Shown here: positions 196-14,634 of the stretch, piece after piece
Layout: every line of letters begins with the position of its first letter
Numbering within the stretch: position 1 is the first letter of the stretch
Source: an uncultured bacterium
Lineage (GTDB): Bacteria; Bacillota; Clostridia; Lachnospirales; Lachnospiraceae
Assembly (NCBI GenBank): GCA_946543095.1
Contig: CAMNLO010000009.1
Span: forward strand, 1-14,634
Length of the DNA stretch: 14,634 nucleotides
Reading direction: 5' to 3'
Position numbers and translations under genes: made by a program
Notes under the pieces: generated by a model
Told to the model about the DNA's origin: nothing
The model's input: the letters and a program-made list of their open reading frames with translations, nothing else
Databases searched by the model: none

Positions 196-227
196 GATTT
201 TTCTCCCTTTGCCCATGGCAATGAATT

Positions 228-245
228 GGTTAGATTCCTCTAACC
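228..245. promoter_or_regulatory. Operator dyad 1, GGTTAG-N6-CTAACC (probable DtxR-family site)
   Basis: GGTTAGATTCCTCTAACC is a perfect 6-bp inverted repeat with a 6-bp spacer. The half-sites resemble the TTAGG/CCTAA arms of DtxR/IdeR boxes. It covers about +1 to +18 of the predicted feoA transcript. Assignment to the adjacent regulator is inferred from position and half-site similarity. Confidence 0.7.
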
Positions 246-252
246 GACTCAC

Positions 253-281: not shown

Positions 282-352
282 GCATGAATCTCATCTTGCT
301 TTAAAAAAACCTCGCAATTTCGATTGAATGCAATTGATTATTGTGATAAGCT

Positions 353-371
353 ATTGCTAATCGTTATCAAT
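353..371. promoter_or_regulatory. 19-bp dyad upstream of the DtxR-type gene, possible autoregulatory or Fur-like site
   Basis: ATTGCTAATCGTTATCAAT is an inverted repeat in which the ATTG, TAA/TTA and CAAT blocks mirror each other with two mismatched pairs outside the 3-bp centre. The size and AT-rich layout resemble Fur-type 19-bp boxes more than the TTAG-N6-CTAA sites near feoA. It lies between a possible extended -10 (TGTGATAAG, 342-350) and the regulator's start. The protein that binds it cannot be told from sequence. Confidence 0.45.
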
Positions 372-431
372 CTATGAAAGGAACGAAGTTTGTCGCCGGC
401 CTCGCTAAAAGTGCTCGGCATGGAGGAAATC

Positions 432-1693: not shown

Positions 1694-2239
1694 AGAGCGG
1701 ATACAATCCGACAGATCTGCAGCTTTCCGGTACGGATACTGGGCGTTTTTGATATCGTAAAGCCCCCTCTCCCTGAGGATCGCCACATAATGCATGTGGA
1801 GCGGATCCTTCTTCGGATGAAAGAGCAGAACGAAGGCAGCCCCCGGATCCCCTGCCTGATAGGGCAGCTCCTGCCCCCCGGGGGCATATCTCATCTCACA
1901 GGAAAGCCCCTGCTTCCGGAAAAACGCAGCCAGGCTTTTCGGCAGGACCCCGGCTTTTCCAAACAGGGCCTCTCCGTTTTTCTCAAACCATTCCACCAGC
2001 TCTGTAAGCTCTGCCCGGATCCCGAAATACCTGAGCACATTAAAGGCGGCCAGGATCCCGCAGCCGTTCCCGCTGATATCTCCCATCCCGTAAGGGATCC
2101 CGGAAACGGCAGCATGTCTCTGGTCCTCCAGATAGCCCTCCGGTAAGGGGCCCGGAAGCGCTCCCTCCACATGGCGGGAAGCATAGCCCCCGAAGACTCC
2201 CAATATGTCATAGCAAAACAGTTTCAGCCCGTTCAACAA
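1451..2239 (-). CDS. Papain-like/C39-like cysteine protein of unknown function
   Basis: A 262-residue frame. SGNGCGILAAFNVLRYFG (about residues 56-73) has the form of the catalytic-Cys helix in C39-like peptidases (Cys60, with Asn58 as a possible oxyanion residue). MHYVAIL (His150) and YDIKNAQ (Asp162/Asn165) would supply the His and Asn/Asp, so a complete papain-like triad is visible. Spacing and overall size fit the BtrH/C39-like fold, but I cannot name a family member. There is no clear signal peptide, so it is probably cytoplasmic. The start is TTG 2239 with an AGAGGGG site 7 nt upstream. Residues after about 196 run antisense to trmH motifs II and III and look unlike a conserved domain, so the natural stop may have been lost. 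It has its own promoter and lies downstream of the lsr terminator. Confidence 0.6.
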   Translation of the reverse strand: MLNGLKLFCYDILGVFGGYASRHVEGALPGPLPEGYLEDQRHAAVSGIPYGMGDISGNGCGILAAFNVLRYFGIRAELTELVEWFEKNGEALFGKAGVLPKSLAAFFRKQGLSCEMRYAPGGQELPYQAGDPGAAFVLLFHPKKDPLHMHYVAILRERGLYDIKNAQYPYRKAADLSDCIRSLNGGNLIPLLLYRIEKPAHCFSDLPERHGGGRCHIQGIHSPSHGDHKDIIAKLQGFFLQSIAFAAEQNRKLFPRSRPEFL

Positions 2240-2282
2240 GGATACACCCCTCTCAAGCCCTCTCCAGTTCTCTTTTCATGCG

Positions 2283-2320
2283 GTGATATCGAACATATCA
2301 CAAGCACGGGGGAATTGCAA
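2283..2320 (-). promoter_or_regulatory. Promoter with overlapping perfect dyad, upstream of the C39-like gene
   Basis: On the minus strand TTGCAA (2320-2315) is followed after 17 bp by TATGTT (2297-2292) with an extended TGA before it. A perfect 7-bp inverted repeat GTGATAT-cgaac-ATATCAC (2283-2301) covers the -10 and the predicted start, as expected for a repressor operator. The binding protein is unknown. Confidence 0.5.
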
Positions 2321-2348
2321 ATGGAATAGAGACACGGTCTTCAGCAGC

Positions 2349-2378
2349 AAAAGAGGAGGATGCGAAAGCATCCCCCTC
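2349..2378 (-). terminator. Intrinsic terminator of the lsrACDBF operon
   Basis: An 11-bp stem with one A-C mismatch (2353-2363 with 2368-2378) is closed by a four-base loop, and on the minus strand it is followed by TTTT (2352-2349). It lies 37 bp beyond the lsrF stop and just upstream of the next minus-strand promoter, as expected for the end of the lsr transcript. Confidence 0.75.
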
Positions 2379-2414
2379 CCAATAGCATCAGATATTCAGT
2401 TTACCGGAAGCCCC

Positions 2415-3293
2415 TTAGTGGGATAATTCCTCAAAGAACTCAAAGGCTTCCTTGTCCGTGAATCCTTCGTGGACGATCTTGTGCACCGCCTGGGCCATTG
2501 CCACGGGATGAGTGGACTGGAAGATATTTCTGCCCATATCCACGCCGGCCGCGCCGCCCTGCATGACCTTGTAGGCAAGGTTTAAAGCATCCTTCTCCGG
2601 AAGCTTCTTTCCGCCTGCGATCACCAGGGGTACGGGACAGGCCGCAGCCACCTCTTCGAAGTTCTCACAGTAGTAGGTCTTCACGATCTGGCAGCCCAGC
2701 TCCGCAAGGATCCTGGTAGCCAGCTTGAAGAACCGGTCCGTCCTCTCCATCTGCTTTCCGACTGCCACAACGCCCAAAGTCGGAATACTGTACTTTAATC
2801 CGGCGTTAATGACCCTGGAAAGGTTTTCCAGGCTGGAGAGCTGTCCGTCGGCCCCCACAAAGGTCTGCACTGCCATACAATCCGCGTTCATCCGGATCGC
2901 GTCCTCGATGTCCACTGCCACCACCTCATGGGAGAGGTCATCGTCCAGCATAGAGGAGCCGGAGGTGACGCGAAGCGCCACACCGCAGGTGTTGCTTGCG
3001 GGAACACAGGTACGCAGCGCGCCTCTGGTGGCCATGAGCACATCCACGTAGGGAAGCAGGGGCGGGATCACCAGATCCAGCCGCTCCAGCCCGGAGGTGG
3101 AGCCCATGAAATAGCCGTGGTCAAAGGCGAACATCACTGTATGTCCTGTCTTCGGGTTGAAGATCCTGGACAGATGCTTCTTCATGCCCCAGTCCAGACT
3201 GTTGGCGCCCTTCACATGGAAATCACCCATGTTGGCAAAAGGCTCTGCAATGTGATAATCCTTCGGGACTTTTAATCCGTCTTTGTCTGCCAT
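2415..3293 (-). CDS. lsrF: LsrF, 3-hydroxy-5-phosphooxypentane-2,4-dione thiolase
   Basis: At 292 residues this is the length of the E. coli protein (291), and long blocks match it: NSLDWGMKKHLSRIFNPKTG (31-50), FAFDHGYF (55-62), VIAGGKKLPE (224-233) and GVDMGRNIFQSTHPVAM (250-266). It is a class I aldolase-fold (beta/alpha)8 enzyme; Lys205 in VKTYY corresponds to the Schiff-base lysine. LsrF transfers the acetyl group of isomerised phospho-AI-2 to CoA, giving dihydroxyacetone phosphate and acetyl-CoA, and so ends the signal. It is the last gene of the minus-strand lsr operon, 18 nt after lsrB, with an AAGGCGG ribosome site. Its substrate is the product of LsrG in enterics, and no lsrG is present here. 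Confidence 0.95.
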   Translation of the reverse strand: MADKDGLKVPKDYHIAEPFANMGDFHVKGANSLDWGMKKHLSRIFNPKTGHTVMFAFDHGYFMGSTSGLERLDLVIPPLLPYVDVLMATRGALRTCVPASNTCGVALRVTSGSSMLDDDLSHEVVAVDIEDAIRMNADCMAVQTFVGADGQLSSLENLSRVINAGLKYSIPTLGVVAVGKQMERTDRFFKLATRILAELGCQIVKTYYCENFEEVAAACPVPLVIAGGKKLPEKDALNLAYKVMQGGAAGVDMGRNIFQSTHPVAMAQAVHKIVHEGFTDKEAFEFFEELSH

Positions 3294-3311
3294 AATGTAA
3301 TACCGCCTTCT

Positions 3312-4496
3312 TTAGAAATTGTAATCCTTTACATTGTCAGCCGTGAACACGACACGCTCGGGAAGAAGCACCACGCCGTTGTTCTCTGCTGCAGTCTCCT
3401 GGCCTTCCACCAGATCGCCGTTGGGAACCACATCCACGCTGCCGATACCGGGAACTTCCACGCTCTCGCCTGCCTTGATGGTGTTGCCGGCTGCGATGTA
3501 AGCTGCGAAGTAGCAGCCCAGAGCACCCTGGACACCGCAATCCCACAGACCCCATCTCTCAAGGATGTTTGCGTCCAGATAAGCGGTCATTCCGGAAGGT
3601 GTGCAGAAGCCGGTGATGGTGATGTCGTCCTTGGTCAGGCCCTTGCTCTGGGCAGCCTGGCACTGTCCGGGAAGAGCGGTGGAGTCGTTGCAGATGATCA
3701 GGTCCACGTCGGGGTTTGCATCCAGAACAGCAGTACCGATCTCCACGGACTTCTGAGGATCCTGCTCTGAATAGTAGGGATCATGCACCACTGTCCAGTT
3801 AGGATAGGTCTTCTTGATGTACTCTTCGCCGGCCACATACCAGGAGTTCTGGTCAGCCACGGAAGGGTTGGAATAATGCCACACATACTTGATGGCATCC
3901 TTTGCGGGATCCTTGCCTCTGTTCTTTAAGGCATCGGCGCCCATATCCACCAGCATGGGTCCTAAGATCCCTGCGGTACCCTGGGAGACCATCAGTGCAC
4001 GGGCATCGGGAGAAACATCGGAGTCCCAGGTGCAGACCACGATCCCCTGGCTCTGGGCTTCCTTTAACTTCTCGTCAAGAGCACTGGCGTCCACAGAGGA
4101 GATGGCGATGGCATCCACGCCCTTGTCCATTGCTTCCTGGATCGCTTCCAGCTGATCGTTCACGGATGCGGAAGCACGGCCGATGTAATCAACGGTGATG
4201 CCCCAGTCAGCCGCATACTTCTGTGCGCCTGCATTTGCTGCCTCGAAGAATGAGTTGCCGGTGACCTTCGGGATCAGGGCCACGGTCTTGCCGGCGATGT
4301 CGCCGCCTGCTGCCGCTGCTGTGTCAGCGCCGGCATCCGGTGCCGCCTCAGCGGGCTTTGCTTCGCTGCCTGCTGCTTCAGCGGGCTTTGCCGCATCCGC
4401 TCCGCCGCCGCTGGGCGCAGTGGCGCCGCCGCAGCCGGCCAGTAAAGCAGCTACCATGCTCAATGCAAGGATGGATGAAATCAGTTTCTTTTTCAT
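3312..4496 (-). CDS. lsrB: LsrB, AI-2-binding lipoprotein of the Lsr ABC transporter
   Basis: A 394-residue periplasmic-binding-protein-type receptor, here a membrane-anchored lipoprotein: residues 1-21 form a lipoprotein signal ending LAGC (Cys22), followed by an Ala/Pro/Gly/Glu-rich linker to about 66, then the two-lobed binding fold. The match to E. coli LsrB is extensive (TWDSD, PSVADQNSW, GLWD, VLLPERVVF). Of the six AI-2 contacts known in enteric LsrB (Lys35, Asp116, Asp166, Gln167, Pro220, Ala222), four are kept (Lys77, Asp158, Asp215, Gln216) and two differ: Asn270 for Pro and Ser272 for Ala. It lies 79 nt after lsrD with a GGGAGG site 11 nt before the ATG. A ribose receptor is the alternative, but the lsrF/lsrK neighbours and the closing ...ERVVF...YNF block favour LsrB. 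Confidence 0.93.
   Translation of the reverse strand: MKKKLISSILALSMVAALLAGCGGATAPSGGGADAAKPAEAAGSEAKPAEAAPDAGADTAAAAGGDIAGKTVALIPKVTGNSFFEAANAGAQKYAADWGITVDYIGRASASVNDQLEAIQEAMDKGVDAIAISSVDASALDEKLKEAQSQGIVVCTWDSDVSPDARALMVSQGTAGILGPMLVDMGADALKNRGKDPAKDAIKYVWHYSNPSVADQNSWYVAGEEYIKKTYPNWTVVHDPYYSEQDPQKSVEIGTAVLDANPDVDLIICNDSTALPGQCQAAQSKGLTKDDITITGFCTPSGMTAYLDANILERWGLWDCGVQGALGCYFAAYIAAGNTIKAGESVEVPGIGSVDVVPNGDLVEGQETAAENNGVVLLPERVVFTADNVKDYNF
4348..4391. repeat. Direct repeat encoding the LsrB linker
   Basis: The 14-mer TCAGCGGGCTTTGC occurs at 4348-4361 and 4378-4391, 30 bp apart, encoding two in-frame AKPAEA units ten residues apart. It lies in the flexible tether between the lipid anchor and the binding domain, where in-frame length change would be tolerated. 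Confidence 0.7.
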
Positions 4497-4548
4497 TGCT
4501 TTTTTAACCTCCCATTAAAAGTTTTGGATGATGAAGCTTAAAGTTCTA

Positions 4549-4572
4549 TATTTCAGGGGATTACCCGAAATA
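4549..4572 (-). promoter_or_regulatory. Intercistronic hairpin between lsrD and lsrB
   Basis: A stem of 6 + 3 bp with a one-base bulge (TATTTC/GAAATA and GGG/CCC, loop of five) begins 3 nt after the lsrD stop. There is no proper U-run behind it, so full termination is unlikely. Such hairpins often protect or set off the transcript part for the binding protein, which is needed in excess over the permeases; that role is inferred. Confidence 0.45.
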
Positions 4573-4575
4573 CCA

Positions 4576-5607
4576 TTAGGATGTTTTCTTCTTTGGCATG
4601 AAGAATCTGTAAAGCTTTCCGCTCTCCGCCAGGGCTCTGCCCACCACGATGATGATCAGGATCACACCCACCGGAAGATCCAGATTCTGGGAGCTGACCC
4701 CGAAGCAAAGGGGAAGTCCATAGCGCAGGATGCAGATGATGATAGAGGCCAGGGCCGTCCCGATGATGCTGCCCTTCCCGCCTGTGGAAAGGGTTCCTCC
4801 CAGCACCACCGCCGTGATGATGGAAAGGGTGAAGGTGGCGCCCAAATCGCTTTTGGCAGAGTCCACATTGGAGGTCAAAAGGATCCCGGAGATCGCCGCA
4901 CCAATGCCCGTCAGGATATAGGTGCTCATGATGACCAGCCTGGTGTTGATGCCGGAATACTCCGCAGCCTGAGGGTTCACGCCGATCAGGAAGATTTTTC
5001 TGCCGTATTTCGTCATGTGCAGTAAAACGCTGCACAAAATGATCAGTACAATGTAAATGAAGATCTGGGTGGGCAGAAAACCGAAGAGCATTCCCTTCCC
5101 CAGAAACCGGAAACCAACGAACGCACCGGTCTCCGTTTTGGAGGGAAAACCGCTGATGCCCTGATAGGCCGGTGTCTTGGACATACCGGAAATCAGCAGG
5201 CCAAGCCCCGAATACAGGAAGCTCCCTCCCAGCGTCACCACCATGGGCTGCACGCCGCAGTAGGCGATGAAGAAACCGGATAAGGCGCCGCAGAGTGCTG
5301 CCGCAAGGATCGCCAGAAGCACGGAGACCCAGATGTTTAAGCCCCCGTCGGACCAGGAGACGCCGATGATGATAGAGGTCAGGCCGATGATGGAGCTGGC
5401 CTGGATGTCAATGCCTCCGGTGATCATGACAAAGGTCACGAACAGGGCGATGATGCAGATGCTGATATAATTGGTGATGCTGGAAAGGATGGAGGCAGGC
5501 CGCAGGAACTTGGCGGGATTCGCCGCGCCGAAGACCACAAACTCCAGCACCAGCAGAATTAACAGGATGAACTCCCATCTCTTGAACAGCTGTTTTACAA
5601 GCTTCAT
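4576..5607 (-). CDS. lsrD: LsrD, AI-2 ABC transporter permease
   Basis: A 343-residue polytopic membrane protein of the BPD_transp_2 (ribose/AI-2) permease family, with about 8-10 hydrophobic segments by eye. Diagnostic stretches match E. coli LsrD: VLEFVVFGAANP (20-31), MITGGIDI (61-68) and AKSDLGATF (251-259) followed by ITAVVLGG. GVNPQAAEYSGI (209-220) is the cytoplasmic loop that docks on the ATPase. LsrC and LsrD form the membrane channel and share LsrA. Its ATG overlaps the lsrC stop by 4 nt, so the two subunits are translationally coupled. The basic tail KKKTS lies on the cytoplasmic side by the positive-inside rule. Confidence 0.92.
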   Translation of the reverse strand: MKLVKQLFKRWEFILLILLVLEFVVFGAANPAKFLRPASILSSITNYISICIIALFVTFVMITGGIDIQASSIIGLTSIIIGVSWSDGGLNIWVSVLLAILAAALCGALSGFFIAYCGVQPMVVTLGGSFLYSGLGLLISGMSKTPAYQGISGFPSKTETGAFVGFRFLGKGMLFGFLPTQIFIYIVLIILCSVLLHMTKYGRKIFLIGVNPQAAEYSGINTRLVIMSTYILTGIGAAISGILLTSNVDSAKSDLGATFTLSIITAVVLGGTLSTGGKGSIIGTALASIIICILRYGLPLCFGVSSQNLDLPVGVILIIIVVGRALAESGKLYRFFMPKKKTS

Positions 5608-6632
5608 ACCTCTGCCCCTCCCTTCGCGTCCGTATCCGCTTTTGTCAGGGCGGTCCTCATCAAAAGTCTTTTCCTTCTGGCGTTCTCAATGGCGCTTCTC
5701 TGGGCCAGGGCGTCGATCACCACGATGGTGATCAGCATGATGCCCGTTATGGCGTCGTCATAGGTGGAGGGCAGCCCGATGAACACCAGCATTCTGGTGA
5801 CGGAGCTCATGATGATGGCCCCGATGGCCGCGCCGGCGATATTGCCCAGGCCTCCGGAAAGGGAGATGCCACCCAGGACACAGGCCGCAATGGCGCTCAT
5901 TTCATAGCCGTTTCCGGCGCTGATGGTGATCTGTCCGTACTTGGAAGCAAAGGCCACTCCCGAGATCCCCGCAAAGACGCCGCTTAAGACATAAGCTGCC
6001 ATCTTTGTCCAGAACACCGAGATCCCCACCAGGTTTGCACCGCCGGGATTGTCTCCCACCGCGATGAAATACTTGCCCCTTCTGGTCCTGGTGAGGAGCA
6101 GGTGGGCGATGATGGCGATCACAAACACGATGGCATAATACCATGTGATGCTGGCGAAGCAGACCTGGGTGCCGTAGCCGGTGAAATCCCCGGCGAAATT
6201 TTCCACGGTCTTCCCCTGGGAAACGATGTACACAAGTCCCCGGATGACGCCGCAGGTACCTAATGTAAAGATCAGGGAGGGCACTCCGAAATAGGCAACT
6301 CCCAGTCCGTTGATGATGCCCACCACTGTCCCGATGACCACCGCCAGGATCAGCATCTTTACGGGAGAACCCTTCTCCTGGGCGATGAGACCGGATATGG
6401 CCGCCATGAGCCCCATGGTGGAGCCGATGGAAACATCGATCTCTCCCGTCATGATCACAAAGGAGATCCCCACCGCCAGAAGGGTGAACACCACGCTGGC
6501 GTTAAAGCAGGCCACGATATTGTCGTAGGTCAGGAAATCGGAATTGATGAGCCCCGTGAGAATGATCAGGGCAATGAGAAACAGGAGGCTGGACATCCAG
6601 CGTACCTGAAGGATATTCTTGATCTTGCTCAT
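5604..6632 (-). CDS. lsrC: LsrC, AI-2 ABC transporter permease
   Basis: A 342-residue integral membrane protein, the same length as E. coli LsrC, in the BPD_transp_2 family. Its first membrane segment is about 14-30; the family motifs are MTGEIDVSIGS (61-71), the ATPase-docking loop GDNPGGANLVGI (193-204) and LGGISLSGGLGNIAGAAIG (253-271). It pairs with LsrD to carry AI-2 across the membrane. Position second in the operon, directly after the ATPase, is the enteric order A-C-D-B. The start overlaps the lsrA stop by 4 nt (coupled translation). The last 30 or so residues are hydrophilic and less conserved. Confidence 0.92.
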   Translation of the reverse strand: MSKIKNILQVRWMSSLLFLIALIILTGLINSDFLTYDNIVACFNASVVFTLLAVGISFVIMTGEIDVSIGSTMGLMAAISGLIAQEKGSPVKMLILAVVIGTVVGIINGLGVAYFGVPSLIFTLGTCGVIRGLVYIVSQGKTVENFAGDFTGYGTQVCFASITWYYAIVFVIAIIAHLLLTRTRRGKYFIAVGDNPGGANLVGISVFWTKMAAYVLSGVFAGISGVAFASKYGQITISAGNGYEMSAIAACVLGGISLSGGLGNIAGAAIGAIIMSSVTRMLVFIGLPSTYDDAITGIMLITIVVIDALAQRSAIENARRKRLLMRTALTKADTDAKGGAEV

Positions 6633-8128
6633 GAAGCCGCCTCCTTCACAATGCCGAAGGACGCGCTGGTCAATGCATCCTGAGTGATATCCGCGTGGTC
6701 AAACTCGCCGTTGATCCTGCCGTTGTAAACAGTAATGGAACGGTCGGCAAGCCCCATGATCTCTTCCATATCCGAGGAGATCATCAGCACAGCCACTCCC
6801 TCTTCCTTCAGCTTCTGAATGATATGATAGACATCTCCTCTGGCGGCAGCATCAATGCCTCTGGTGGGCTCGTCCAGGATCACCACCTTGGGCTTTGTGG
6901 AAAGAGCTCTTCCGATGACCACCTTCTGCTGGTTTCCGCCGGAAAGCGAAGACATCAGATCCGCCAGGGAAACGATCTTCGTCCGGAAATCGTCAACATA
7001 TTTCTGGGAGATCCCGTTTTCGGATTTCTTATCGATGAGAAAGCTTCCCACCGCCTTGCCGTTCAGCAAAGCGCTCGTCGTGTTTGCTGCAATGGAGCTG
7101 ATGCCGAAGATCCCGTGATAATGCCTGTCCTCCGGCACATAATTGATCCCGGCCTCCAGGATCTGCTTTGTGGAAAGACCGGTGATATCCTTTCCTTCCA
7201 GGAAAACCTTGCCGGAAAGCACCTTATCCCGTCCGAAAATGGTGCTCACAAGCTCGGTCCTGCCTGCTCCCACCACTCCTGCGATGCCCAGGATCTCTCC
7301 CGGATACAGGTTAAAGGTGATATTGCTGAAGCCGTAGCCGGAGAGATCCTTCACCTCCATCACCGGCTTTAATTTCGAATAGTCAATGGCTTTGTATTCC
7401 CTGCTGCCATGGTCCTTGTGCTCCGTATCCGGGGGCAGAAGGCCCTGCACCAGCATCTCTTTCGTGAAATCCGCCACAGGCCCGCTTAAGGTCACCACGC
7501 CGTCCCGCATGATGGCCACGTGGGTGGCGATCTCGAAGACCTCCCCCAGACGGTGGGTGATATAGATCAGGGCAATGCCCTTTTTCTTCAGATCCTGAAC
7601 TACTTTAAACAGGGAACGGACCTCGTCGAAGGTCAGGGCGCTGGTGGGCTCATCCAGGATCAGGATCCTAGCCTCCCGCATCATGCCCTTTAAGATCTCC
7701 ACCAGCTGCTGCTCCGCGATGGATAAGGTATTTGCCTTTCTCTGCAGATGCAGGTCGAAGCCCAGCTCCTGAATGCACTGTTCCAGACGCTTCTTTAATA
7801 CGGAAGCGCTTTCCTTAAATCCCATCAGGATGTTCTCTTCCACCGTCATATTGGGGAAAAGAAGAGGTTCCTGAGGCACCATGTAGATCCCAAGCGCAAG
7901 TGCCTGAGAGGGCTGCGTGATCGCCGCTTTCTCCCCGGCCACCCGGATTTCGCCTTCATCCGGCTGATAGATCCCCATGATGATCTTCATCAGGGTGCTC
8001 TTACCGGCTCCGTTTCCGCCGATCAGCGCCAGGACCTCTCCGCCCTTCAGCTCCATACTGATGCCTTTTAAGACTGCGTTGGTCCCGAAAGACTTATAAA
8101 TATTCTTTACCGAGAGCATGCTTTCCAA
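6629..8128 (-). CDS. lsrA: LsrA, AI-2 ABC transporter ATP-binding protein
   Basis: A 499-residue tandem ABC ATPase of the sugar (CUT2/ribose) type. Domain 1: Walker A GGNGAGKST (38-45), Walker B ILILDEPTSAL (155-165), H-loop His192, and a degenerate signature LSIAEQQ. Domain 2: a degenerate Walker A GVVGAGRTE (284-292), a canonical LSGGNQQK signature (395-402) and Walker B VVILDEPTRGID (415-426). One good and one altered site is usual for RbsA/LsrA proteins. It powers LsrCD. The start is TTG 8128, with GGAGG at 8140-8136 and a 7-nt gap; the nearby ATG at 8133 is out of frame and too close to that site. An in-frame ATG at 8119 is possible but has poorer spacing. It is the first gene of the minus-strand lsr operon. 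Confidence 0.93.
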   Translation of the reverse strand: MESMLSVKNIYKSFGTNAVLKGISMELKGGEVLALIGGNGAGKSTLMKIIMGIYQPDEGEIRVAGEKAAITQPSQALALGIYMVPQEPLLFPNMTVEENILMGFKESASVLKKRLEQCIQELGFDLHLQRKANTLSIAEQQLVEILKGMMREARILILDEPTSALTFDEVRSLFKVVQDLKKKGIALIYITHRLGEVFEIATHVAIMRDGVVTLSGPVADFTKEMLVQGLLPPDTEHKDHGSREYKAIDYSKLKPVMEVKDLSGYGFSNITFNLYPGEILGIAGVVGAGRTELVSTIFGRDKVLSGKVFLEGKDITGLSTKQILEAGINYVPEDRHYHGIFGISSIAANTTSALLNGKAVGSFLIDKKSENGISQKYVDDFRTKIVSLADLMSSLSGGNQQKVVIGRALSTKPKVVILDEPTRGIDAAARGDVYHIIQKLKEEGVAVLMISSDMEEIMGLADRSITVYNGRINGEFDHADITQDALTSASFGIVKEAAS

Positions 8129-8182
8129 GGCATTTCCTCCACAACTGTTTCATTGAAGATGCTACTGTAACAATATAATCTG

Positions 8183-8211
8183 ATAATAGCCCGCTTACTG
8201 CTCTTTGTCAA
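8183..8211 (-). promoter_or_regulatory. lsrACDBF promoter (TTGACA-N17-TATTAT)
   Basis: On the minus strand TTGACA (8211-8206) is followed by TATTAT (8188-8183) after exactly 17 bp. The predicted start is near 8176, leaving a leader of about 48 nt before the TTG start of lsrA. A strong core promoter implies that control is by repression rather than by need for an activator. Confidence 0.8.
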
Positions 8212-8222
8212 GAAAAAATCTT

Positions 8223-8250
8223 ACAAATGTTTCGACTTATTTTCATTTGT
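8223..8250. promoter_or_regulatory. Candidate LsrR operator, lsrA side (ACAAATG-N14-CATTTGT)
   Basis: A perfect 7-bp inverted repeat, ACAAATG at 8223-8229 and CATTTGT at 8244-8250, with half-site centres 21 bp apart (two helical turns). It lies about 46-74 bp upstream of the predicted lsrA start, just behind the -35. The same half-sites recur on the lsrR side, and nowhere else in the window did I notice such a pair. Confidence 0.7.
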
Positions 8251-8341
8251 GTTTTCGGAGTTCCATTTTTGCTTGTGTATTTTGTCAGTCAGAGCAGAAG
8301 CTTTTTTGTTCGAAAATATACTTATTTGATAAAAAACCGCA

Positions 8342-8370
8342 TTGACATACAGAATATTGATTGCTATACT
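8342..8370 (+). promoter_or_regulatory. lsrRK promoter (TTGACA-N17-TATACT, extended -10)
   Basis: TTGACA (8342-8347), a 17-bp spacer and TATACT (8365-8370), with TG one base before the -10, give a very strong sigma-A promoter. The predicted start is near 8377. The hexamers and spacing are the same as in the feoA promoter. Transcription would run through the lsrR-side dyad at once, fitting autorepression. Confidence 0.82.
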
Positions 8371-8385
8371 TACTGCTAAGACAGC

Positions 8386-8412
8386 ACAAATGTTGTCGTT
8401 TTATACATTTGT
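8386..8412. promoter_or_regulatory. Candidate LsrR operator, lsrR side (ACAAATG-N13-CATTTGT)
   Basis: ACAAATG at 8386-8392 and CATTTGT at 8406-8412 repeat the dyad found on the lsrA side with one base less between the arms (centres 20 bp apart). It lies at about +10 to +36 of the predicted lsrR transcript, where bound protein would block early elongation. Some inner bases (TGTT, TCG) are also shared with the other copy. Confidence 0.7.
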
Positions 8413-8469
8413 ACGCCCCTTTTCAGGGTGATTTTGCGCTCATTTTCTTTATTATCGATCATCAAAAAT

Positions 8470-9423
8470 ATGCATGCAGTGAATCAGATAACCGACCGGG
8501 AGATCCTGGATTATGAAGAAGCGCTGATGTCGAAGGCCGCCTGGTATTACTACTACGACGAGCTGACTCAGCAGCAGATCGCCGAGAAGCTGGGGGTTAC
8601 CCGGGTACGGGTCATCCGGCTGCTGGATAAGGCAAAGAAAACGGGAGTCGTGCGCTTTCAGATCCGCTCGGACTCCGAGAAGCGCCTGCTCGCGGAGCAG
8701 AAGCTGATCTCCCTTTTTGGCCTGGAGGACTGCTTTGTGGTCCCTGCCACGGTTTCTCCGGAAGACACCAACGAGAATATCGCCAGAGCCGCTTCCATGT
8801 ATATCGGCAGCCGGATCCCGGAGGAAGCTTTCATCAATGTGGGCTACGGAGACACCTCCGGCCGGATCCTGAACCATCTGGCCATCCGGGCGGAACGGGC
8901 CCTCTCCTGCGTTTCCTTAACCGGGGGAGTCAGCTACTACCTCCCCAACGCCAATTCCAGCGTGTTCAATTCGCGCCTGTACCTGATCCCCACGCCGCTC
9001 ATCGCCTCCACGGACGAAATGGCGGAAGCCATGCGGACGGAAAAATCGGTGAAGGACGTGGAGCGGCTGATCCCACTCTCCTTTATGACCGTGGTGGGCA
9101 TCGGCTCCATCGGACCGGAGGCCACGATCCTCACCTCGGGGATCCTTTCCCAGAACGATTTTCTGGTGCTGCAGAGAAACGGCGCCGTGGGAGATGTGTT
9201 AAGCCACTTTATCGATCAGGACGGCAATATCGTGGCGTCCGACCTGGAGAAGCGGATCATCTCCACTCCCCTGGAAACCTTAAGAAGTCTGAAGAATGTG
9301 ATCGGTGTGGCCGCGGGACTCAATAAGGTCCCGGCGATCCTGGCCACCCTGAGAGGCGGATACATCGGGACTTTGATCACGGACGAGGACACCGCCCTGG
9401 AGCTTTTAAAGGCGGTGGAGTAG
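8470..9423 (+). CDS. lsrR: LsrR, SorC-family repressor of the lsr genes
   Basis: From ATG 8470 the protein is 317 residues, the length of E. coli LsrR. It has an N-terminal helix-turn-helix (about 31-62, ELTQQQIAEKLGVTRVRVIRLL) and the SorC sugar-phosphate-binding domain, with matching blocks LTGGV, TPLIAS, VKDV, VGIG and GAVGDVL, the last being part of the effector pocket. In enterics LsrR represses both lsr operons until phospho-AI-2 releases it. The start is uncertain: ATG 8470 has no clear ribosome site; an in-frame GTG at 8428 and an ATG at 8527 (weak GAAGAAG site) are the alternatives. It is divergent from lsrA, with lsrK downstream in the same direction and a candidate operator in its own leader. 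Confidence 0.92.
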   Translation: MHAVNQITDREILDYEEALMSKAAWYYYYDELTQQQIAEKLGVTRVRVIRLLDKAKKTGVVRFQIRSDSEKRLLAEQKLISLFGLEDCFVVPATVSPEDTNENIARAASMYIGSRIPEEAFINVGYGDTSGRILNHLAIRAERALSCVSLTGGVSYYLPNANSSVFNSRLYLIPTPLIASTDEMAEAMRTEKSVKDVERLIPLSFMTVVGIGSIGPEATILTSGILSQNDFLVLQRNGAVGDVLSHFIDQDGNIVASDLEKRIISTPLETLRSLKNVIGVAAGLNKVPAILATLRGGYIGTLITDEDTALELLKAVE

Positions 9424-9442
9424 GCTCGCCGCTGTTGCAAAA

Positions 9443-9475
9443 GACCCTGCCGGGTCAGATGGGAGGCATGTATTG
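9443..9475 (+). promoter_or_regulatory. lsrK translation start region: small hairpin, GGGAGG site and two-codon ATG-TAT-TGA frame
   Basis: A 5-bp hairpin GACCC-TGCC-GGGTC (9443-9456) lies just before the GGGAGG site (9461-9466). The first start codon after it, ATG 9468, is read ATG-TAT-TGA, and this stop overlaps the TTG (9473-9475) that opens lsrK, 6 nt from the ribosome site. A terminate-reinitiate arrangement or simple TTG initiation would both lower LsrK output. Confidence 0.45.
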
Positions 9476-11041
9476 AGTAAAGAACAGTATCTTATGGCAG
9501 TGGATGCCGGAACAGGGAGCGTGAGAGCCGTCCTGTTTGACACCGCAGGAGGTCAGAAGGGCGTGTCTGCCAGGGAATGGGAGCATCTCTCCGATCCCCG
9601 CTATCCCGGCAGCATGGATTTTGACTGGAAGCACAACTGGGAGCTGGCCAGCTCCTGCATCCGGGATGTGATCAAAGACACCGGCATCGCTCCGGAGGAC
9701 ATCGCCGCCGTTTCCACCACCTGCATGAGAGAAGGGATCCTTCTCTATGATCGGGATGGCAATGAGATCTGGGCCTGCGCCAATGTGGATTCCCGCAGCA
9801 CGGACGAGGTGGCGGAGCTGGTGAAGAAGGATCCGGAGCTGGAAAAGGAGTTGTATCTGGAATCCGGCGAAGCCTACGCCCTGGGCGCTCTCCCCAGACT
9901 TCTCTGGGTGAAGAACAAAATGCCGGAGATCTATGAAAAGACCGCCAGGATCGGAATGTTCAACGACTGGCTGATCTATAAGCTGACAGGCGTGATGCCC
10001 ATCGAGCCCAGTAACGGCTCCACCACGGGCATCTTCGATCTGAAAAAAAGGGACTGGGATCCTTCCATCGCCGGAAAGGTAGGCATCAGAGAGGATATCT
10101 TCCCCAAGGTCTACGAATGCGGAACGAAGGTTTCCGCCGTCAATGAAAAGGGAGCCTCGGACACAGGCCTGGCCGTAGGGACTCCCGTGGTGGTGGGCGG
10201 CGGCGATTCCCAGCTGGGCTGCATCGGCGTGGGCGTTGTCAAGCCTGATCAGGCAGCCATCTTCGGCGGCAGCTTCTGGCAGTATGAATTCAACACCGCC
10301 GACGGCAAAACGGATCCCGGCTGCAGAGTGCGGGTGAACTGCCATGCGGTCCCCGGTGTCTGGCAGTTTGAAGCCCTGGCCTTTAATCCCGGGCTTGTGA
10401 TGCGCTGGTTCCGGGACGGCTTCTGCCAGAGAGAGGCAGAGATCGCCAAAAAAACCGGCGAAGATATCTACGATCTGATGAACAGGGAAGCGGAAAAGAT
10501 CCCCGCAGGCTCCAACGGCATGATGTGCACCTTTTCTGACGTCATGAACTTCACCTGCTGGAAGCACGCCTCCCCCACTTTCACAAACTTCAGCATCGAT
10601 CCGAAGCTCCATAACCGCTACACCTTCTACCGCGCCATTATGGAGAACACCTGCCTTGTGACCAAGGGACATGTGGACCTGGTGCGGGAGGCCACGGGCA
10701 ACATGCCGAAGGAAGTAGTCTTTGCCAGCGGCGCTTCCAAGAGCCCCCTTTGGTGCCAGATCCTTGCGGATGTCTTAAATCTGCCGGTGAAGGTCCCGGT
10801 GGTGAAGGAGGCCACGGCCTTAGGAGCCGCCATTCTGGCAGGAGTGGGGGTCGGCATCTATAAGGACGCGGAGGAGGGAGCCGCCAAATGCGTCCGGTTT
10901 GACAAAACCTATCTTCCCAATGCCGAGAATCATAAGGTGTATGAGGAAATGTATCCCGTCTGGAGAAAGGTCTACGCTGCGCAGCTTGCGCTTTGCGATG
11001 AAAAGCTGACCCGGAACATGTGGATCGCACCGGGGTTATAA
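9473..11041 (+). CDS. lsrK: LsrK, autoinducer-2 kinase
   Basis: A 522-residue FGGY-family carbohydrate kinase matching E. coli LsrK throughout: LMAVDAGTGSVRAVLFD (7-23), MREGILLYD (85-93), IWACANVDSR (99-108), VVVGGGDSQLGC (239-250, Asp245 as catalytic base), VKEATALGAAI in the C-terminal ATPase domain, and the closing WIAPGL. It phosphorylates imported DPD (linear AI-2) with ATP in the cytoplasm, trapping the signal and making the LsrR ligand. TTG 9473 is chosen as start because GGGAGG lies 6 nt upstream and the nearby ATG is closed at once by a stop. It is about 50 nt after lsrR and in the same operon. The 405-residue open frame on the opposite strand is a shadow. Confidence 0.96.
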   Translation: MSKEQYLMAVDAGTGSVRAVLFDTAGGQKGVSAREWEHLSDPRYPGSMDFDWKHNWELASSCIRDVIKDTGIAPEDIAAVSTTCMREGILLYDRDGNEIWACANVDSRSTDEVAELVKKDPELEKELYLESGEAYALGALPRLLWVKNKMPEIYEKTARIGMFNDWLIYKLTGVMPIEPSNGSTTGIFDLKKRDWDPSIAGKVGIREDIFPKVYECGTKVSAVNEKGASDTGLAVGTPVVVGGGDSQLGCIGVGVVKPDQAAIFGGSFWQYEFNTADGKTDPGCRVRVNCHAVPGVWQFEALAFNPGLVMRWFRDGFCQREAEIAKKTGEDIYDLMNREAEKIPAGSNGMMCTFSDVMNFTCWKHASPTFTNFSIDPKLHNRYTFYRAIMENTCLVTKGHVDLVREATGNMPKEVVFASGASKSPLWCQILADVLNLPVKVPVVKEATALGAAILAGVGVGIYKDAEEGAAKCVRFDKTYLPNAENHKVYEEMYPVWRKVYAAQLALCDEKLTRNMWIAPGL

Positions 11042-11074
11042 CAGGGGAAACACCGGATAATCAGCAGGTTTCAA

Positions 11075-11101
11075 GGGAAACAGAAATGATCAGCGTTTCC
11101 C
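11075..11101 (+). promoter_or_regulatory. Intercistronic hairpin between lsrK and the cupin gene
   Basis: GGGAAAC (11075-11081) and GTTTCCC (11095-11101) form a 7-bp stem with a 13-nt loop. A second GGGAAAC (11045-11051) could compete for the same arm or pair with GTTTC at 11068-11072. There is no U-run, so this is not a terminator; it may affect mRNA stability or set cupin expression apart from lsrK. Confidence 0.35.
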
Positions 11102-11124
11102 GGAAAAAAGAAAAGGAGAGGAAA

Positions 11125-11475
11125 ATGTTCGTAGTACATGAAAATGATTTTGAGTACCGTTTCGGAGACAGCGGCCCCAAGTATCTGATGAAGGGACCCA
11201 GAATGAATTTCGCACTGGTGCAGTTCCAGCCGGGACAGGATTTTACCGCCCACTACCACAACATCATGGAAGAGAATTTCTATATCCTGAGCGGTGAAGT
11301 GGATATCGTGGTGGACGGAAAGGTGAATCACTTAACGGAAGGGCAGATGATCCACATCGAGCCGAAGGAGATCCACTATGTGATCAATCATTACGACAAG
11401 CCTGTAAAGATGGTGAGCACACTGGCCCCCTTCCAGGAGGTGGACAAGGTGGAGGTGCCGGACTACAAATACTGA
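11125..11475 (+). CDS. Small cupin protein of the lsr operon, candidate phospho-AI-2 isomerase
   Basis: A 116-residue single-domain cupin. Motif 1 is complete: Gly37, His43, His45, Glu50 and Gly57, spaced G(X)5HXH(X)4E(X)6G. Motif 2 gives Gly73, Pro80, His84 and Asn88. The 3-His/1-Glu metal site (His43, His45, Glu50, His84) is therefore intact. Start ATG 11125 is preceded by AAAGGAGAGG; the reading frame is open further upstream, into the end of lsrK, but without conserved sequence. It lies 83 nt after lsrK, on the same strand and before a strong terminator, so it is the third gene of the lsrR operon. Related small cupins include sugar isomerases and KdgF-type enzymes. Since LsrG is absent, it may isomerise phospho-DPD for LsrF; this is inference from context, and a dioxygenase or sensor role is also possible. 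Confidence 0.8.
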   Translation: MFVVHENDFEYRFGDSGPKYLMKGPRMNFALVQFQPGQDFTAHYHNIMEENFYILSGEVDIVVDGKVNHLTEGQMIHIEPKEIHYVINHYDKPVKMVSTLAPFQEVDKVEVPDYKY

Positions 11476-11535
11476 GCTGAGGATAAGACTTTTTCACCCG
11501 ATATCACCGTAAGGTGAGAAACAGGGAGGGATGAT

Positions 11536-11580
11536 AATGGGGCTGACGCAGAAGTGATGGCGTCAGCCCCATTTATATTA
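11536..11580 (+). terminator. Strong terminator after the lsrR-lsrK-cupin operon
   Basis: A perfect 14-bp stem (11536-11549 with 11560-11573, AATGGGGCTGACGC on the left arm) with a 10-nt loop is followed by an AT-rich TTTATATTAT stretch. It ends the plus-strand operon 60 nt after the cupin stop. The opposite face could also block minus-strand transcripts from the convergent ribokinase gene, though without a clear U-run. Confidence 0.8.
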
Positions 11581-11644
11581 TGTCAACCGTTTCGGATTTG
11601 TAGCGGGATTAATAACTGAGTTATGTTAACTGCTCTATCTGGAG

Positions 11645-12628
11645 TTATGTAAACTTCAGGATGTCTCCCGAATACCCGCTCTCATCCATCAGCTTCAGCA
11701 CATGCTCCAGATCCGGCAGGCTGGGCAGCGCCCCTTCCCTGCAGACCGTCAGCGCCGCAGCATAAGTGGCAAAATCCATGGCTTCGTTCTCTCCCATACC
11801 GGCGGACAGTGCCGTACAGAAGGAGGCCACGAAAGAGTCTCCTGCGGCAGTAGGGTCCACCACATGCTCCATGGGAATGGCCACCTTCCGGATCAGTTCC
11901 TTCTCCCCATCCAGGATGGAGCCCTTATCTCCCAGGGTCACAAGGACAGAGCCTGCGCCCATGGCCCGGAGCCTGTCCGTGATCTGCATGAGGCCGTTGA
12001 TGTCCACTCCCTTTTCCCCCTTGGGTACGGGGAGCCCCGTCAGGGCTGCCGCTTCTGTTTCATTGGGGGAGAGATATGTCACATGGGACAGGAACTCTGG
12101 GCTTAACTCTACCGCAGGAGCAGGGTTCAGCATCACCGGGACCCTGTTCTTATGCGCCAGCCCGGCCACATACTCGTTGGTCTCCATGGAGATCTCCAGC
12201 TGCAGCAGCACCATATCGTAATCTTTGATCTCTTTTTCCAGGAAGGAAAGATCCCGTGGGGAAAGCTCCAGATTGGCGCCGGGGAGAACAAGGATGCGGT
12301 TCCCCGCGCCCTCGTTCCCCTGCTCTACCTCGATCAGGGCAGCGCCTGTGGCCTTCGTGTCGGAAATATGCACATGGCTGATGTCCACGCCGGCCATCTT
12401 ATGCACGTTCAGCAGGGCCGCTCCGAAGGCATCCTGACCCACGGAGCCGATCATTGTGACCTCCGCCCCCAAAAGCGCACACTGCATCGCCTGATTGGAG
12501 CCCTTCCCCCCGGGAGCGGTACGAAGCTCACTTCCCATGAGGGTCTCCCCCATTTCGGGAATGCGGGGAGCGATCCCGATGAGATCCATATTAAAACTGC
12601 CGACTACCAGTATCTTCGGTCGTTTCAC
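11645..12628 (-). CDS. Ribokinase-type PfkB-family sugar kinase
   Basis: A 327-residue PfkB-family kinase closest in motifs to RbsK: GSFNMD (10-15), GGKGSNQA (40-47), LNPAPA (167-172), NETEA (189-193) and VDPTAAGDSF (257-266, Asp264 as catalytic base in the anion-hole motif). It would phosphorylate ribose or a related sugar at the 5-OH with ATP. I chose GTG 12628 because GAGGA lies 5 nt upstream and the protein then starts MKRPKILVVGSFNMD; ATG codons at 12655 and 12640 would add 9 or 4 residues but have no good ribosome site. It converges on the lsrRK operon and lies 56 nt after the SPFH gene on the same strand. No ribose transporter is nearby, so a link to the Lsr system is possible but unproven. 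Confidence 0.88.
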   Translation of the reverse strand: MKRPKILVVGSFNMDLIGIAPRIPEMGETLMGSELRTAPGGKGSNQAMQCALLGAEVTMIGSVGQDAFGAALLNVHKMAGVDISHVHISDTKATGAALIEVEQGNEGAGNRILVLPGANLELSPRDLSFLEKEIKDYDMVLLQLEISMETNEYVAGLAHKNRVPVMLNPAPAVELSPEFLSHVTYLSPNETEAAALTGLPVPKGEKGVDINGLMQITDRLRAMGAGSVLVTLGDKGSILDGEKELIRKVAIPMEHVVDPTAAGDSFVASFCTALSAGMGENEAMDFATYAAALTVCREGALPSLPDLEHVLKLMDESGYSGDILKFT

Positions 12629-12684
12629 GTGATTCCTCATTCCGGAGCGAATCATGCGGACAAAGTCCGCATGGCGAAGGTCTA

Positions 12685-13998
12685 TCAGGGCTTAGGGGTT
12701 CCGCAGTCGCTGCAGAATTTTCCTTCATTTACCTTGCCGCATTTCGGGCAGGTCCAGGGGCCTGCTTCGGGCCGCTTCTCACCGCATTCCATACAGAACT
12801 TTCCGGTGTTCACCTTCCCGCATTTCGGGCAGGTCCAGCCTGCTGCTTCTTCCGGCTTCTTCTCTCCGCAGTCCATGCAGAATTTTCCGGTGTTCACCTT
12901 CCCGCATTTCGGGCAGGTCCAGCCCCCTGCGGGAGCCGCTGCCGGAGCCTGTGCGGGAGCTGCCTGAGCTGCCTGAGCCTGCTGCTGCGCTCCCATCTGG
13001 AAGAGCTGCCCGGCGTTCATGCCCCCTGCCTGGTTTGCCATGTTCATGCCGGCGAAGGCCATCATGGGACCTGTGCTCTGGTTGGAAGCCGCCGCCTGCA
13101 TCGCGGAGGCTTGTGCCCCTACCAGATGTGCCGCCGCCATATTGGGATCCCTGAGGGTGGCATTCCTCTGCAGCTCCTTGATCATGGCCTCGTCTTCCTC
13201 GGAGGCCTTCATGGAGTTCACGCCGAAGGAAACGATCTCGATCCCTCTTAACTCTCTCCAGTCCTTGGAAAGCTCAGTGTTCAGGGCGTCTGCCAGTTCC
13301 CTGGTGTGCGCCGGCACGGCGGAATAGCGGATCCCCATTTCCGAGATCCTTGCGAAGGCCGGCTGCAGTGCCGTCAAAAGCTCCGATTTTAACTGGGAAT
13401 CAATCTGATCCCTCTTGTATTCCGTGGTCACATTGCCGCAGACATTGGTATAGAACAGGATGGGATCGATGATATGGTAGGAGTATTCGCCGTTGCAGCG
13501 AATGGAGATATCCACATCCAGTCCGATATTCTTATCCACCACGCGGAAGGGCACCGGCGCCGGAGTGCCGTACTTATTCCCCACCAGCTCCTTGGTGTTG
13601 AAGAAGTAAACCCTCTGCTCTCTTGCGGCCTGTCCCCCAAAGGTGAACCTGCGGCCGAAGGTCTTAAAGCTGTCGATAATGGAAGCCCCCAGATTTCCCG
13701 CAAAGATGCTGGGCTCCGAAGAGGTATCATAGGTATACTCACCCGGCTGTGCACAGATCTCCACCACCTTGCCCTGGTCCGTAATGATCATGCACTGTCC
13801 GTCGTTCACCGCGATCACGGAGCCGTTGGAGATCACGTTGTCTTCGCCCTTGTTATTGCTGCCGCCGCGGCCGCTGGTACGCTTCATTCCTCTTGTCATC
13901 AGGACATCCGCCGGCAATGCGTCGCAATAGAAGTACTCTTTCCACTGATCTGCCAGGACACCGCCGCCTGCCGATAATACCGCACTGATCAAACCCAT
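12685..13998 (-). CDS. SPFH-domain protein with three C-terminal zinc ribbons (YdjI-like)
   Basis: A 437-residue protein. Residues about 20-275 form an SPFH/band-7-like domain of the bacterial 'virion core protein' type (WKEYFYCDALPADVLM, GSVIAVNDGQCMII, FFNTKELVGNKYGTP are typical). A Met/Gln/Ala-rich low-complexity linker follows (about 285-358), then three near-identical CxxC...CxxC zinc ribbons at 360-379, 388-407 and 415-433 (WTCPKCGKVN.GKFC..CG). Members of this family in Bacillus (YdjI) occur with PspA-like membrane-stress proteins; none is visible here. There is no signal peptide or strong membrane segment, so it probably acts at the inner face of the membrane or in the cytoplasm. AAGGAGG lies 8 nt before the ATG. 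Confidence 0.88.
   Translation of the reverse strand: MGLISAVLSAGGGVLADQWKEYFYCDALPADVLMTRGMKRTSGRGGSNNKGEDNVISNGSVIAVNDGQCMIITDQGKVVEICAQPGEYTYDTSSEPSIFAGNLGASIIDSFKTFGRRFTFGGQAAREQRVYFFNTKELVGNKYGTPAPVPFRVVDKNIGLDVDISIRCNGEYSYHIIDPILFYTNVCGNVTTEYKRDQIDSQLKSELLTALQPAFARISEMGIRYSAVPAHTRELADALNTELSKDWRELRGIEIVSFGVNSMKASEEDEAMIKELQRNATLRDPNMAAAHLVGAQASAMQAAASNQSTGPMMAFAGMNMANQAGGMNAGQLFQMGAQQQAQAAQAAPAQAPAAAPAGGWTCPKCGKVNTGKFCMDCGEKKPEEAAGWTCPKCGKVNTGKFCMECGEKRPEAGPWTCPKCGKVNEGKFCSDCGTPKP
12740..12920. repeat. Tandem repeats encoding three zinc ribbons
   Basis: The block CATTTCGGGCAGGTCC recurs at 12740-12755, 12821-12836 and 12905-12920, at 81- and 84-bp periods (27 and 28 codons). The second and third units match over a longer stretch (TTTTCCGGTGTTCACCTTCC and more), suggesting the latest duplication lies between them. 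These are coding repeats, not a CRISPR array. Confidence 0.85.
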
Positions 13999-14164
13999 TA
14001 CATTACCCTCCTTATGAAAAACCCGGTGCTTGTGCCGGGGAGCCGCCCGGGGGCAATATCCCTGCGCAGTATCCCCGGAGGTTTCCTGTTGTTGATCCGG
14101 CGCCCGGTGCTACATCACCCAAAGGGATCGGACCCATTCCGTTCACCGGCGCTCATGCTTCATC

Positions 14165-14193
14165 ATTATATCAAATCTGTGCTTCAAAATGAA
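14165..14193 (-). promoter_or_regulatory. Possible promoter of the SPFH gene with a 160-nt GC-rich leader
   Basis: On the minus strand TATAAT (14170-14165) is preceded by TGA, an extended -10; the -35 (TTCATT, 14193-14188) is poor. The start would be near 14158, with a long GC-rich leader to 13998. A small hairpin GCTTCA-AAA-TGAAGC (14181-14195) overlaps the -35 region and may weakly end the upstream gene's transcript. Confidence 0.45.
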
Positions 14194-14198
14194 GCATT

Positions 14199-14630
14199 TC
14201 AGAGGTTCTGAATGATGAATACATGAAAGCTCTGATTCTTCCCGTCATAGGTGAGATATTTCTCGTTCAACCCTGTCTTTACATCGATCAGGGCGCTGAT
14301 CTTATGATCGTCGGCGATGTTCTTGACGGTCTGAAAGGGGATCAGCCCCATCTCCAGATACCCTCCGGAAAGGGCCACGGGATGCTGCTTTCCGTACTCC
14401 ACGCAGTCCTTCGGATTCGTAAACACAATGAGATTTCCCTTCGCATGCAGCACTCCCTGAAAGCAGAACTGCTCCATCAGAAATCTGTCTTTCGGCTGCA
14501 TCGTATAGAGAAATTTTCCCTGAAACAGGTCCCCGATGGCCTGCCAGTCCTTATCCGTCTGATGATTCTTGGAAAGCTTCAGCTTCAGCTGCGCGATCTC
14601 ATCCTCCGAGAAGGGTGCTTCCTTTGCCAT
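14199..14630 (-). CDS. Unrecognised 143-residue protein, possibly SseB-like
   Basis: A soluble, mixed-charge protein beginning MAKEAPFSEDEIAQLKLKL (an amphipathic helix rich in Glu and Lys) and followed by alternating strand and helix stretches. GVLHAKGNLIVFTNPKDCVEYGKQH and ALSGGYLEMGLIPFQTV recall the 'value, then field, then index' pattern of SseB N-terminal-domain proteins, but the likeness is weak and I do not assign a family. No signal peptide or membrane segment is seen. The chosen ATG is 4 bases from the window edge, so its ribosome site is not visible and the gene may begin further upstream. It lies before the SPFH gene on the same strand, separated by 200 nt with a possible promoter. 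Confidence 0.6.
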   Translation of the reverse strand: MAKEAPFSEDEIAQLKLKLSKNHQTDKDWQAIGDLFQGKFLYTMQPKDRFLMEQFCFQGVLHAKGNLIVFTNPKDCVEYGKQHPVALSGGYLEMGLIPFQTVKNIADDHKISALIDVKTGLNEKYLTYDGKNQSFHVFIIQNL

Positions 14631-14634
14631 TGTT

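Follow-up and report, generated by a model that had tools for sequence, protein, structure and literature searches.

Which protein performs the middle step of autoinducer 2 (AI-2) breakdown where an lsr operon holds the kinase LsrK and the thiolase LsrF and no recognizable LsrG? The question arises at an lsr locus of a Lachnospiraceae bacterium, within the stretch of 14,634 nucleotides analysed here (contig CAMNLO010000009.1 of assembly GCA_946543095.1, positions 1-14,634, forward strand; hereafter the window). The route described for the destruction of AI-2 phosphate, the phosphorylated form of 4,5-dihydroxy-2,3-pentanedione (phospho-DPD), runs through LsrG and LsrF, and neither family models nor phmmer with Escherichia coli LsrG revealed an LsrG-like frame in the window. 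Directly behind lsrK lies a small cupin gene, which the original prediction had cast as a possible non-homologous replacement of LsrG. We consider this cupin a probable phospho-DPD isomerase, functionally equivalent to LsrG, and infer its metal, substrate, reaction and product from the evidence below; 'functionally equivalent and probably older' describes it better than replacement.

The cupin gene (11125..11475, forward strand; 116 amino acids) has an ATG start and its own AGGAG ribosome-binding site upstream, and begins 83 nt after the stop codon of lsrK (9473..11041, forward strand), whose product matches the LsrK model NF008187 at 747 bits, over the cut-off of 528; its position directly after the kinase was thus as described. 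So was its character as a small cupin with an intact 3-His/1-Glu site: it belongs to PF07883 (Cupin_2; 64.5 bits against a cut-off of 27.2), and its metal-site residues, all on the forward strand, H43 (11251-11253), H45 (11257-11259), E50 (11272-11274) and H84 (11374-11376), were invariant across 87 aligned homologues (alignment A1, 65 rows of which made up structure alignment A2; two frames stood outside both, L061, cut by a contig end, and L059, with a stop codon near its end). The pattern they form fits G(X)5HXH(X)4E(X)6G, the motif of cupins. The predicted model (mean predicted local distance difference test score, pLDDT, 97) has the all-beta cupin fold in ten strands with this site, and its top structural matches are cupins. 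Reading the function from the fold alone was given up, since the top matches were nearly tied and covered several chemistries. No match to the LsrG model (NF007791) or the ABM model (PF03992) was found for the protein, which matched cupin-type models instead; judged by these models it is an analogue of LsrG at most, and not a member of its family. A search gave 1331 relatives at E 1e–15, and among the 120 listed none bore a functional name beyond 'cupin' types. The frame in L059 (3337-3687) has one stop codon, and its metal-site residues precede it.

The link between lsrK and this cupin is far above chance. In a sample of 196 genomes of the order, the LsrK model cleanly separated seven kinases (725-784 bits) from the next (282), and a search of the same genomes with the cupin alignment gave seven strong matches (164-212 bits; next best 54) in exactly those seven genomes, each adjoining lsrK by coordinates. 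The cupin was thus present in 7 of 7 LsrK genomes and 0 of 189 others (Fisher's exact P = 5e–13, a value that ignores relatedness, so that the effective number behind it is smaller). A separate scan with the window LsrK, taking one genome per species and the best 80 of 183 loci, found the cupin in 77, one of these cut by a contig end; in the other three the contigs stop 2-52 nt past the lsrK match. Over the window, six order loci and the scan, 83 of 84 cupins lie behind lsrK on the same strand, with gaps of 12-448 nt (median 51); only in L039 is the cupin upstream of lsrK and on the other strand. Chance adjacency to any sugar kinase was rejected, because none of 23 other FGGY kinase loci had such a cupin within about 1.5 kb. 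Across 72,556 plasmid records only seven places matched the cupin at E 1e–10 or better, and all seven adjoin lsrK by coordinates, one across the record start. Beyond the order, LsrK exceeded its cut-off in two genomes of a phylum sample of 398, namely the window's own and G483, where a very divergent cupin follows LsrK, and in three of 296 genomes from the phylum to which an actinobacterial carrier belongs; each of these three has the cupin, and two were already in the scan.

The original prediction called the cupin the only unassigned enzyme in the lsr transcripts, which is true of the window, and when frames of at least 90 amino acids were clustered over 86 related lsrK loci, the only other recurrent family in more than five loci was a permease-like one. 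This family, in 28 of the 86 (e.g., L078:1720-2766), recurs near the lsrF side; by eye it is an AEC/auxin-efflux-type carrier, and it had no NCBIfam match. An assembly labelled Planctomycetota has a tandem pair of cupin genes behind lsrK (L114:9511-9861 and 9898-10251). In Lacticaseibacillus paracasei a complete lsrF-lsrBDCA-type, lsrR-lsrK-cupin-rbsD locus lies on a plasmid typed as conjugative (L129:5249-14339).

Of the 86 genomes behind these loci, 55 were searched whole for LsrG and LsrF (31 for LuxS, 15 for LsrB and 12 for LsrA). LsrF exceeded its cut-off in all 55 and LsrG in none, and in 50 no LsrG or ABM match appeared even at E 0.001; that is, the carriers searched have the last enzyme of AI-2 breakdown and not the usual middle one. 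The window's own lsrF (2415..3293, reverse strand), for the thiolase acting on 3-hydroxy-5-phosphonooxypentane-2,4-dione, scores 412.9 bits against NF006081 (cut-off 297) and is 52% identical in its product to E. coli LsrF. As a positive control we used 11 lsrK-bearing plasmid records, where all nine proteins partnering lsrK as LsrG scored 99-193 bits; seven of these fell below the curated cut-off of 135, so LsrG was judged by score and not by the cut-off alone. An E. coli genome among the controls gave no match in the whole-genome LsrG search, nor did the Lacticaseibacillus control record. An LsrG hidden inside the loci was discarded as an explanation after a phmmer search with E. coli LsrG (E up to 10, frames of at least 60 amino acids) of the window, the 86 loci and E. 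coli returned only E. coli's own. We made no use of the absence of LsrG from the window's own genome, whose assembly is 68% complete (no ABM match at E 1). Outside the Salmonella-type loci treated below, then, the genomic partners are LsrK and LsrF without LsrG, and with LsrF present, LsrG absent and the cupin beside lsrK, the cupin likely supplies the middle step.

Set between a kinase and a thiolase, and with the E. coli pathway as model, the missing reaction is, we infer, the keto-shift isomerization of phospho-DPD. LsrG is reported to isomerize phospho-DPD (Marques, 2011 and 2014), as is also indicated by the NCBI names of LsrF and of LsrG, (4S)-4-hydroxy-5-phosphonooxypentane-2,3-dione isomerase. 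In the proposed route LsrK would phosphorylate DPD. A metal ion bound by the cupin would then grip phospho-DPD through its neighbouring oxygens, in the form of a cis-enediolate, and a nearby residue would move a proton between C4 and C3 to give 3-hydroxy-5-phosphonooxypentane-2,4-dione. From this LsrF, with coenzyme A (CoA), would yield dihydroxyacetone phosphate (DHAP) and acetyl-CoA, the carbon fate stated for E. coli in a passage of PMC7828210. LsrG (NF007791, ABM fold PF03992) has the same partners, LsrK and LsrF, and the reaction we propose is the same, but the two proteins are unrelated: one is of the ABM family and the other a cupin, with no sequence match between them, and the cupin has a metal-site motif. 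One passage of PMC13220807 terms LsrG a 'cofactor-independent monooxygenase' type protein. Among other cupins, archaeal phosphomannose isomerases (PDB 7zvy, 7zvm) are about 25% identical to the window protein and differ in substrate and partners, and KdgF (PDB 5fpx, 5fpz, 5fq0, 7zyb) is 14-22% identical in alignments. The KdgF substrate is an unsaturated uronate and is not phosphorylated.

In some loci the same slot is filled by the other protein. An ABM protein homologous to LsrG lies directly behind lsrK, where the cupin lies elsewhere, in six alphaproteobacterial loci (Ensifer, S. meliloti, Thalassospira, Alloyangia, Tritonibacter and Paracoccus), and in Roseicitreum an LsrG homologue lies upstream with transporter genes; searching these seven records for the cupin gave nothing above 31.1 bits. 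In the four annotated loci, the ABM proteins reach 99-121 bits against the LsrG model, share 41-54% identity with the E. coli protein, and occur with a class II aldolase gene in the place of lsrF, which is absent from the stretch; for the last step as well, alphaproteobacterial lsr operons may have a non-homologous substitute. The Ensifer aldolase is related to the aldolase half of rhamnulose-phosphate aldolase/dehydrogenase proteins (the annotated lsr loci are L130, L132, L133 and L134). Of the plasmid records, 77 contained an LsrG-type protein and 79 contained LsrK, and the genera were largely the same.

This distribution bears on the alternative that survives best, namely that the cupin acts before isomerization, opening, hydrating or epimerizing ring forms of phospho-DPD in the manner of KdgF, while the keto shift proceeds spontaneously or is made by LsrF. 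We consider this unlikely, since the lsr loci of E. coli K-12, Klebsiella and Alphaproteobacteria that we opened have LsrG or its homologue and manage without such a cupin, since the Lacticaseibacillus locus has a D-ribose pyranase, a more natural enzyme for ring forms, right beside the cupin, and since 55 of 55 LsrF carriers would be left with no known isomerase.

Several observations weigh against the isomerase assignment. The Salmonella lsr loci (plasmid records that, judged by their genes, resemble moved chromosomal regions) contain, besides lsrACDBFG and an epimerase gene, a cupin that lies behind lsrK and shares 46% identity with that of the window, so that lsrG and the cupin occur together in four of four Salmonella-type plasmid records. 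A Salmonella-type cupin is carried by 125 of 5426 E. coli genomes, and both E. coli islands opened (L143 and L144) are lsr islands with cupin, lsrG and epimerase. Five positions with at least 95% conservation among the 83 rows of the clostridial clade (the A1 rows other than G483, Salmonella, Deinococcus and Lacticaseibacillus) differ in the Salmonella cupin, where R26 is replaced by G, H77 by Q, S98 by F, L100 by K and K108 by S. Deinococcus has lsrK-cupin with neither lsrF nor an LsrG-like gene in the stretch, and its plasmid has a weak LsrG-model match (41.8 bits) away from lsrK. Three LsrK-like kinases below the cut-off lacked an adjacent cupin, those of 379 and 337 bits from the phylum sample and that of 486 bits from the actinobacterial one. 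A lyase, a dehydratase and other cupins lie within 2 Z units among the fold neighbours, which thereby do not prove the reaction. Phospho-DPD might isomerize by itself, or the LsrF of these bacteria might take it directly; five of the 55 carriers have weak ABM matches (best 43.7 bits) that could hide a distant isomerase, and many carriers are metagenome assemblies of unstated completeness.

With lsrG and the cupin side by side, the latter may act otherwise or be redundant in Salmonella-type loci. It shares with the window cupin the slot behind lsrK and retains all four metal-site residues, and it differs in living with LsrG and an epimerase; it may have diverged, be redundant or be differently employed. 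Simple mutual exclusion of cupin and LsrG was abandoned on this account. The expectation that the cupin would go with lsrK and lsrF in place of lsrG accordingly held outside Proteobacteria (LsrF 55/55, LsrG 0/55), together with the six alphaproteobacterial exchanges of the slot, and failed in the Salmonella-type loci. The E. coli islands L143 and L144 are flanked by yjhX-family genes. The 486-bit kinase (G863:C1:3565630-3567159; L148, L149) lies in a 944-codon frame near several other FGGY kinases.

The weak ABM matches also speak for a second alternative, that the isomerase is another protein that escaped detection, be it a far-diverged member of the ABM family or a sugar-phosphate isomerase encoded at an unlinked site, with the cupin as an accessory. 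We hold this to be quite improbable: 50 of the 55 carriers have no match at E 0.001, the permease-like family is the only other one present in more than five of the 86 loci, and the cupin is kept even in loci pared down to kinase, cupin and thiolase.

Such reduced loci emerged among the 63 whose sequence was long enough to judge, either reaching at least 8 kb upstream and 2.5 kb downstream of lsrK or fetched as a 20-kb region. Of these 63, eight lack lsrR, lsrA, lsrC, lsrD and lsrB (L036 has only 3.3 kb before lsrK), and all eight keep lsrK and the cupin, with lsrF in the stretch in seven and further along the same contig in the eighth. In these eight genomes no Lsr-type LsrB was found (best 113 bits, against at least 292 in 7 of 7 controls) nor any close LsrA (351 bits at most, where 4 of 4 controls gave at least 637), while luxS was present in all eight (28 of the 31 genomes searched); since most are metagenome assemblies, an absence may be a gap. 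Where the genes of import and regulation are missing, the cupin thus remains alongside the catabolic enzymes. L036 is reduced to an lsrK-cupin-lsrF operon; L040 has, on a single strand, lsrK, the cupin, a rubrerythrin-like gene, lsrF, luxS and a methylthioadenosine/S-adenosylhomocysteine (MTA/SAH) nucleosidase gene; in L037 lsrF, luxS and the nucleosidase gene stand together 7 kb from lsrK-cupin, with a rubrerythrin-like gene between lsrF and luxS; and in L051 luxS lies directly behind the cupin.

As a separate observation, luxS lies less than 10 kb from lsrK-cupin in 4 of 87 stretches (L040:9998-15012; L037:194-3113 and 9974-12056; L051:2126-4928; L039:18927-19352). In L037 and L040 the genes of AI-2 synthesis and breakdown are adjacent, with a nucleosidase gene and without Lsr importer genes.

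Retention in reduced loci counts against the cupin being a phospho-AI-2 binding or regulatory protein, a signal buffer or a partner of LsrR. Many cupins are ligand-binding domains of regulators, and in most loci with enough sequence the cupin shares a unit with lsrR and lsrK, but it persists in 8 of 8 loci without lsrR and transporter genes and its four metal-site residues are invariant in 87 rows, so a regulatory role seems very improbable. Just as far-fetched, in our view, is an oxygen-using enzyme acting on the phospho-DPD enediol, by analogy with acireductone dioxygenase, with which it has the type of metal site in common: the enediol is an acireductone and rubrerythrin-like genes accompany L040 and L037, yet many carriers are rumen and gut Clostridia, generally anaerobes, and LsrF, present in 55 of 55, would lose its substrate.

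Returning to the cupin as isomerase, its age relative to LsrG was approached with an LsrK tree of 41 rows. It split into two well-supported clades, Proteobacteria with Deinococcus (100/99) and Bacillota with Actinomycetota and the assemblies labelled Planctomycetota (100/96). Among these rows the cupin occurs on both sides of this main split and in the deepest row, G483, and LsrG is confined to Proteobacteria, so that the direction of replacement in the original prediction, cupin for LsrG, is probably to be reversed. The tree suggests that the cupin is the older partner of LsrK and that LsrG entered in Proteobacteria and took over. On the simplest account, an ancestral LsrK-cupin pair would have been joined by LsrG in Proteobacteria, most of which would then have lost the cupin, with Salmonella-type loci keeping both. 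Deinococcus is only weakly separated from Proteobacteria (89/74), the branch of G483 is long and adjoins the outgroup, and rooting was by midpoint, so the tree is moderate evidence for a cupin-first history; transfer of the cupin could also account for the pattern.

We tentatively advance a more far-reaching proposal in two joined parts, somewhat short of what we would call probable: that some gut and rumen Clostridia run the pathway wholly inside the cell, as carbon salvage from the methyl cycle, and that the cupin is the original phospho-DPD isomerase and LsrG its later proteobacterial replacement. In the intracellular version the nucleosidase and LuxS would make DPD, and LsrK, the cupin and LsrF would convert it to DHAP and acetyl-CoA, while an importer for AI-2 and the repressor would be absent.

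The window locus itself is of the full kind, with the cupin last in the unit lsrR-lsrK-cupin and a divergent unit lsrACDBF running from 8128 down to 2415. An lsrR-type repressor gene (8461..9423, forward strand; PF04198) has as its best model NF011947, LsrR, at 224 bits, under the cut-off of 486. The transporter genes, on the reverse strand, likewise score under their cut-offs with their best models: an lsrA-type ATPase (6629..8128; NF011967, 531 bits, cut-off 586), lsrC-type (5604..6632; NF011961, 215 bits, cut-off 388) and lsrD-type permeases (4576..5607; NF011612, 232 bits, cut-off 500) and an lsrB-type AI-2 binding protein (3312..4496; NF011937, 295 bits, cut-off 384). Between the units lie two promoter-like sites, by consensus match only, TTGACA-17-TATACT for lsrR-lsrK-cupin (8342..8370, forward strand) and TTGACA-17-TATTAT for lsrACDBF (8183..8211, reverse strand); four such sites were found in the stretch against 2.6 expected. 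About 60 nt 3' of the cupin is a strong, terminator-like hairpin (11537..11572, forward strand) with a 13-bp stem, a 10-nt loop and a weak T tail (–28.3 kcal/mol for 11530-11585, z = –5.81), which fell outside a first list of hairpins whose loop limit was 8. Beyond it a ribokinase gene (11645-12655) converges on the cupin; no match to it above 100 bits was found in the other lsrK loci. At 12685-13998 is an SPFH-like protein with three C-terminal zinc-ribbon repeats (judged by eye) and no NCBIfam match.

Traces of the association can be found in earlier work. Table 4 of PMC8876208 gives, for Bacillus sp. B87, the RASTtk/PATRIC role 'Cupin domain protein in autoinducer 2 (AI-2)-related operon', in a listing that has an LsrF-type thiolase and, as far as that table goes, no LsrG. 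This is very probably the same association, as an annotation label that, in that table, comes without function or analysis; annotators had thus already noticed it. In the open-licence literature searched, no paper joined 'cupin' with 'LsrG', nor 'cupin' with 'autoinducer-2' and 'lsrK'. The Salmonella cupin behind lsrK is, we presume from locus-tag order, STM4071. Under that tag a 'hypothetical protein' is grouped with the lsr genes in a fabR-mutant profile (PMC4804515), and a grouping 'STM4071-80' appears in a passage of PMC11000858. An earlier survey (PMC3420918) ranks lsrF and lsrG as the least common lsr genes.

For the gut and rumen bacteria that carry it, in none of the 55 of which a recognizable LsrG was found, a cupin isomerase would make the pathway complete, and AI-2 would be food as well as signal. 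If the assignment is true, it would also suggest a function for a cupin family of 1331 relatives and bear on an unstudied gene beside lsrK in Salmonella.
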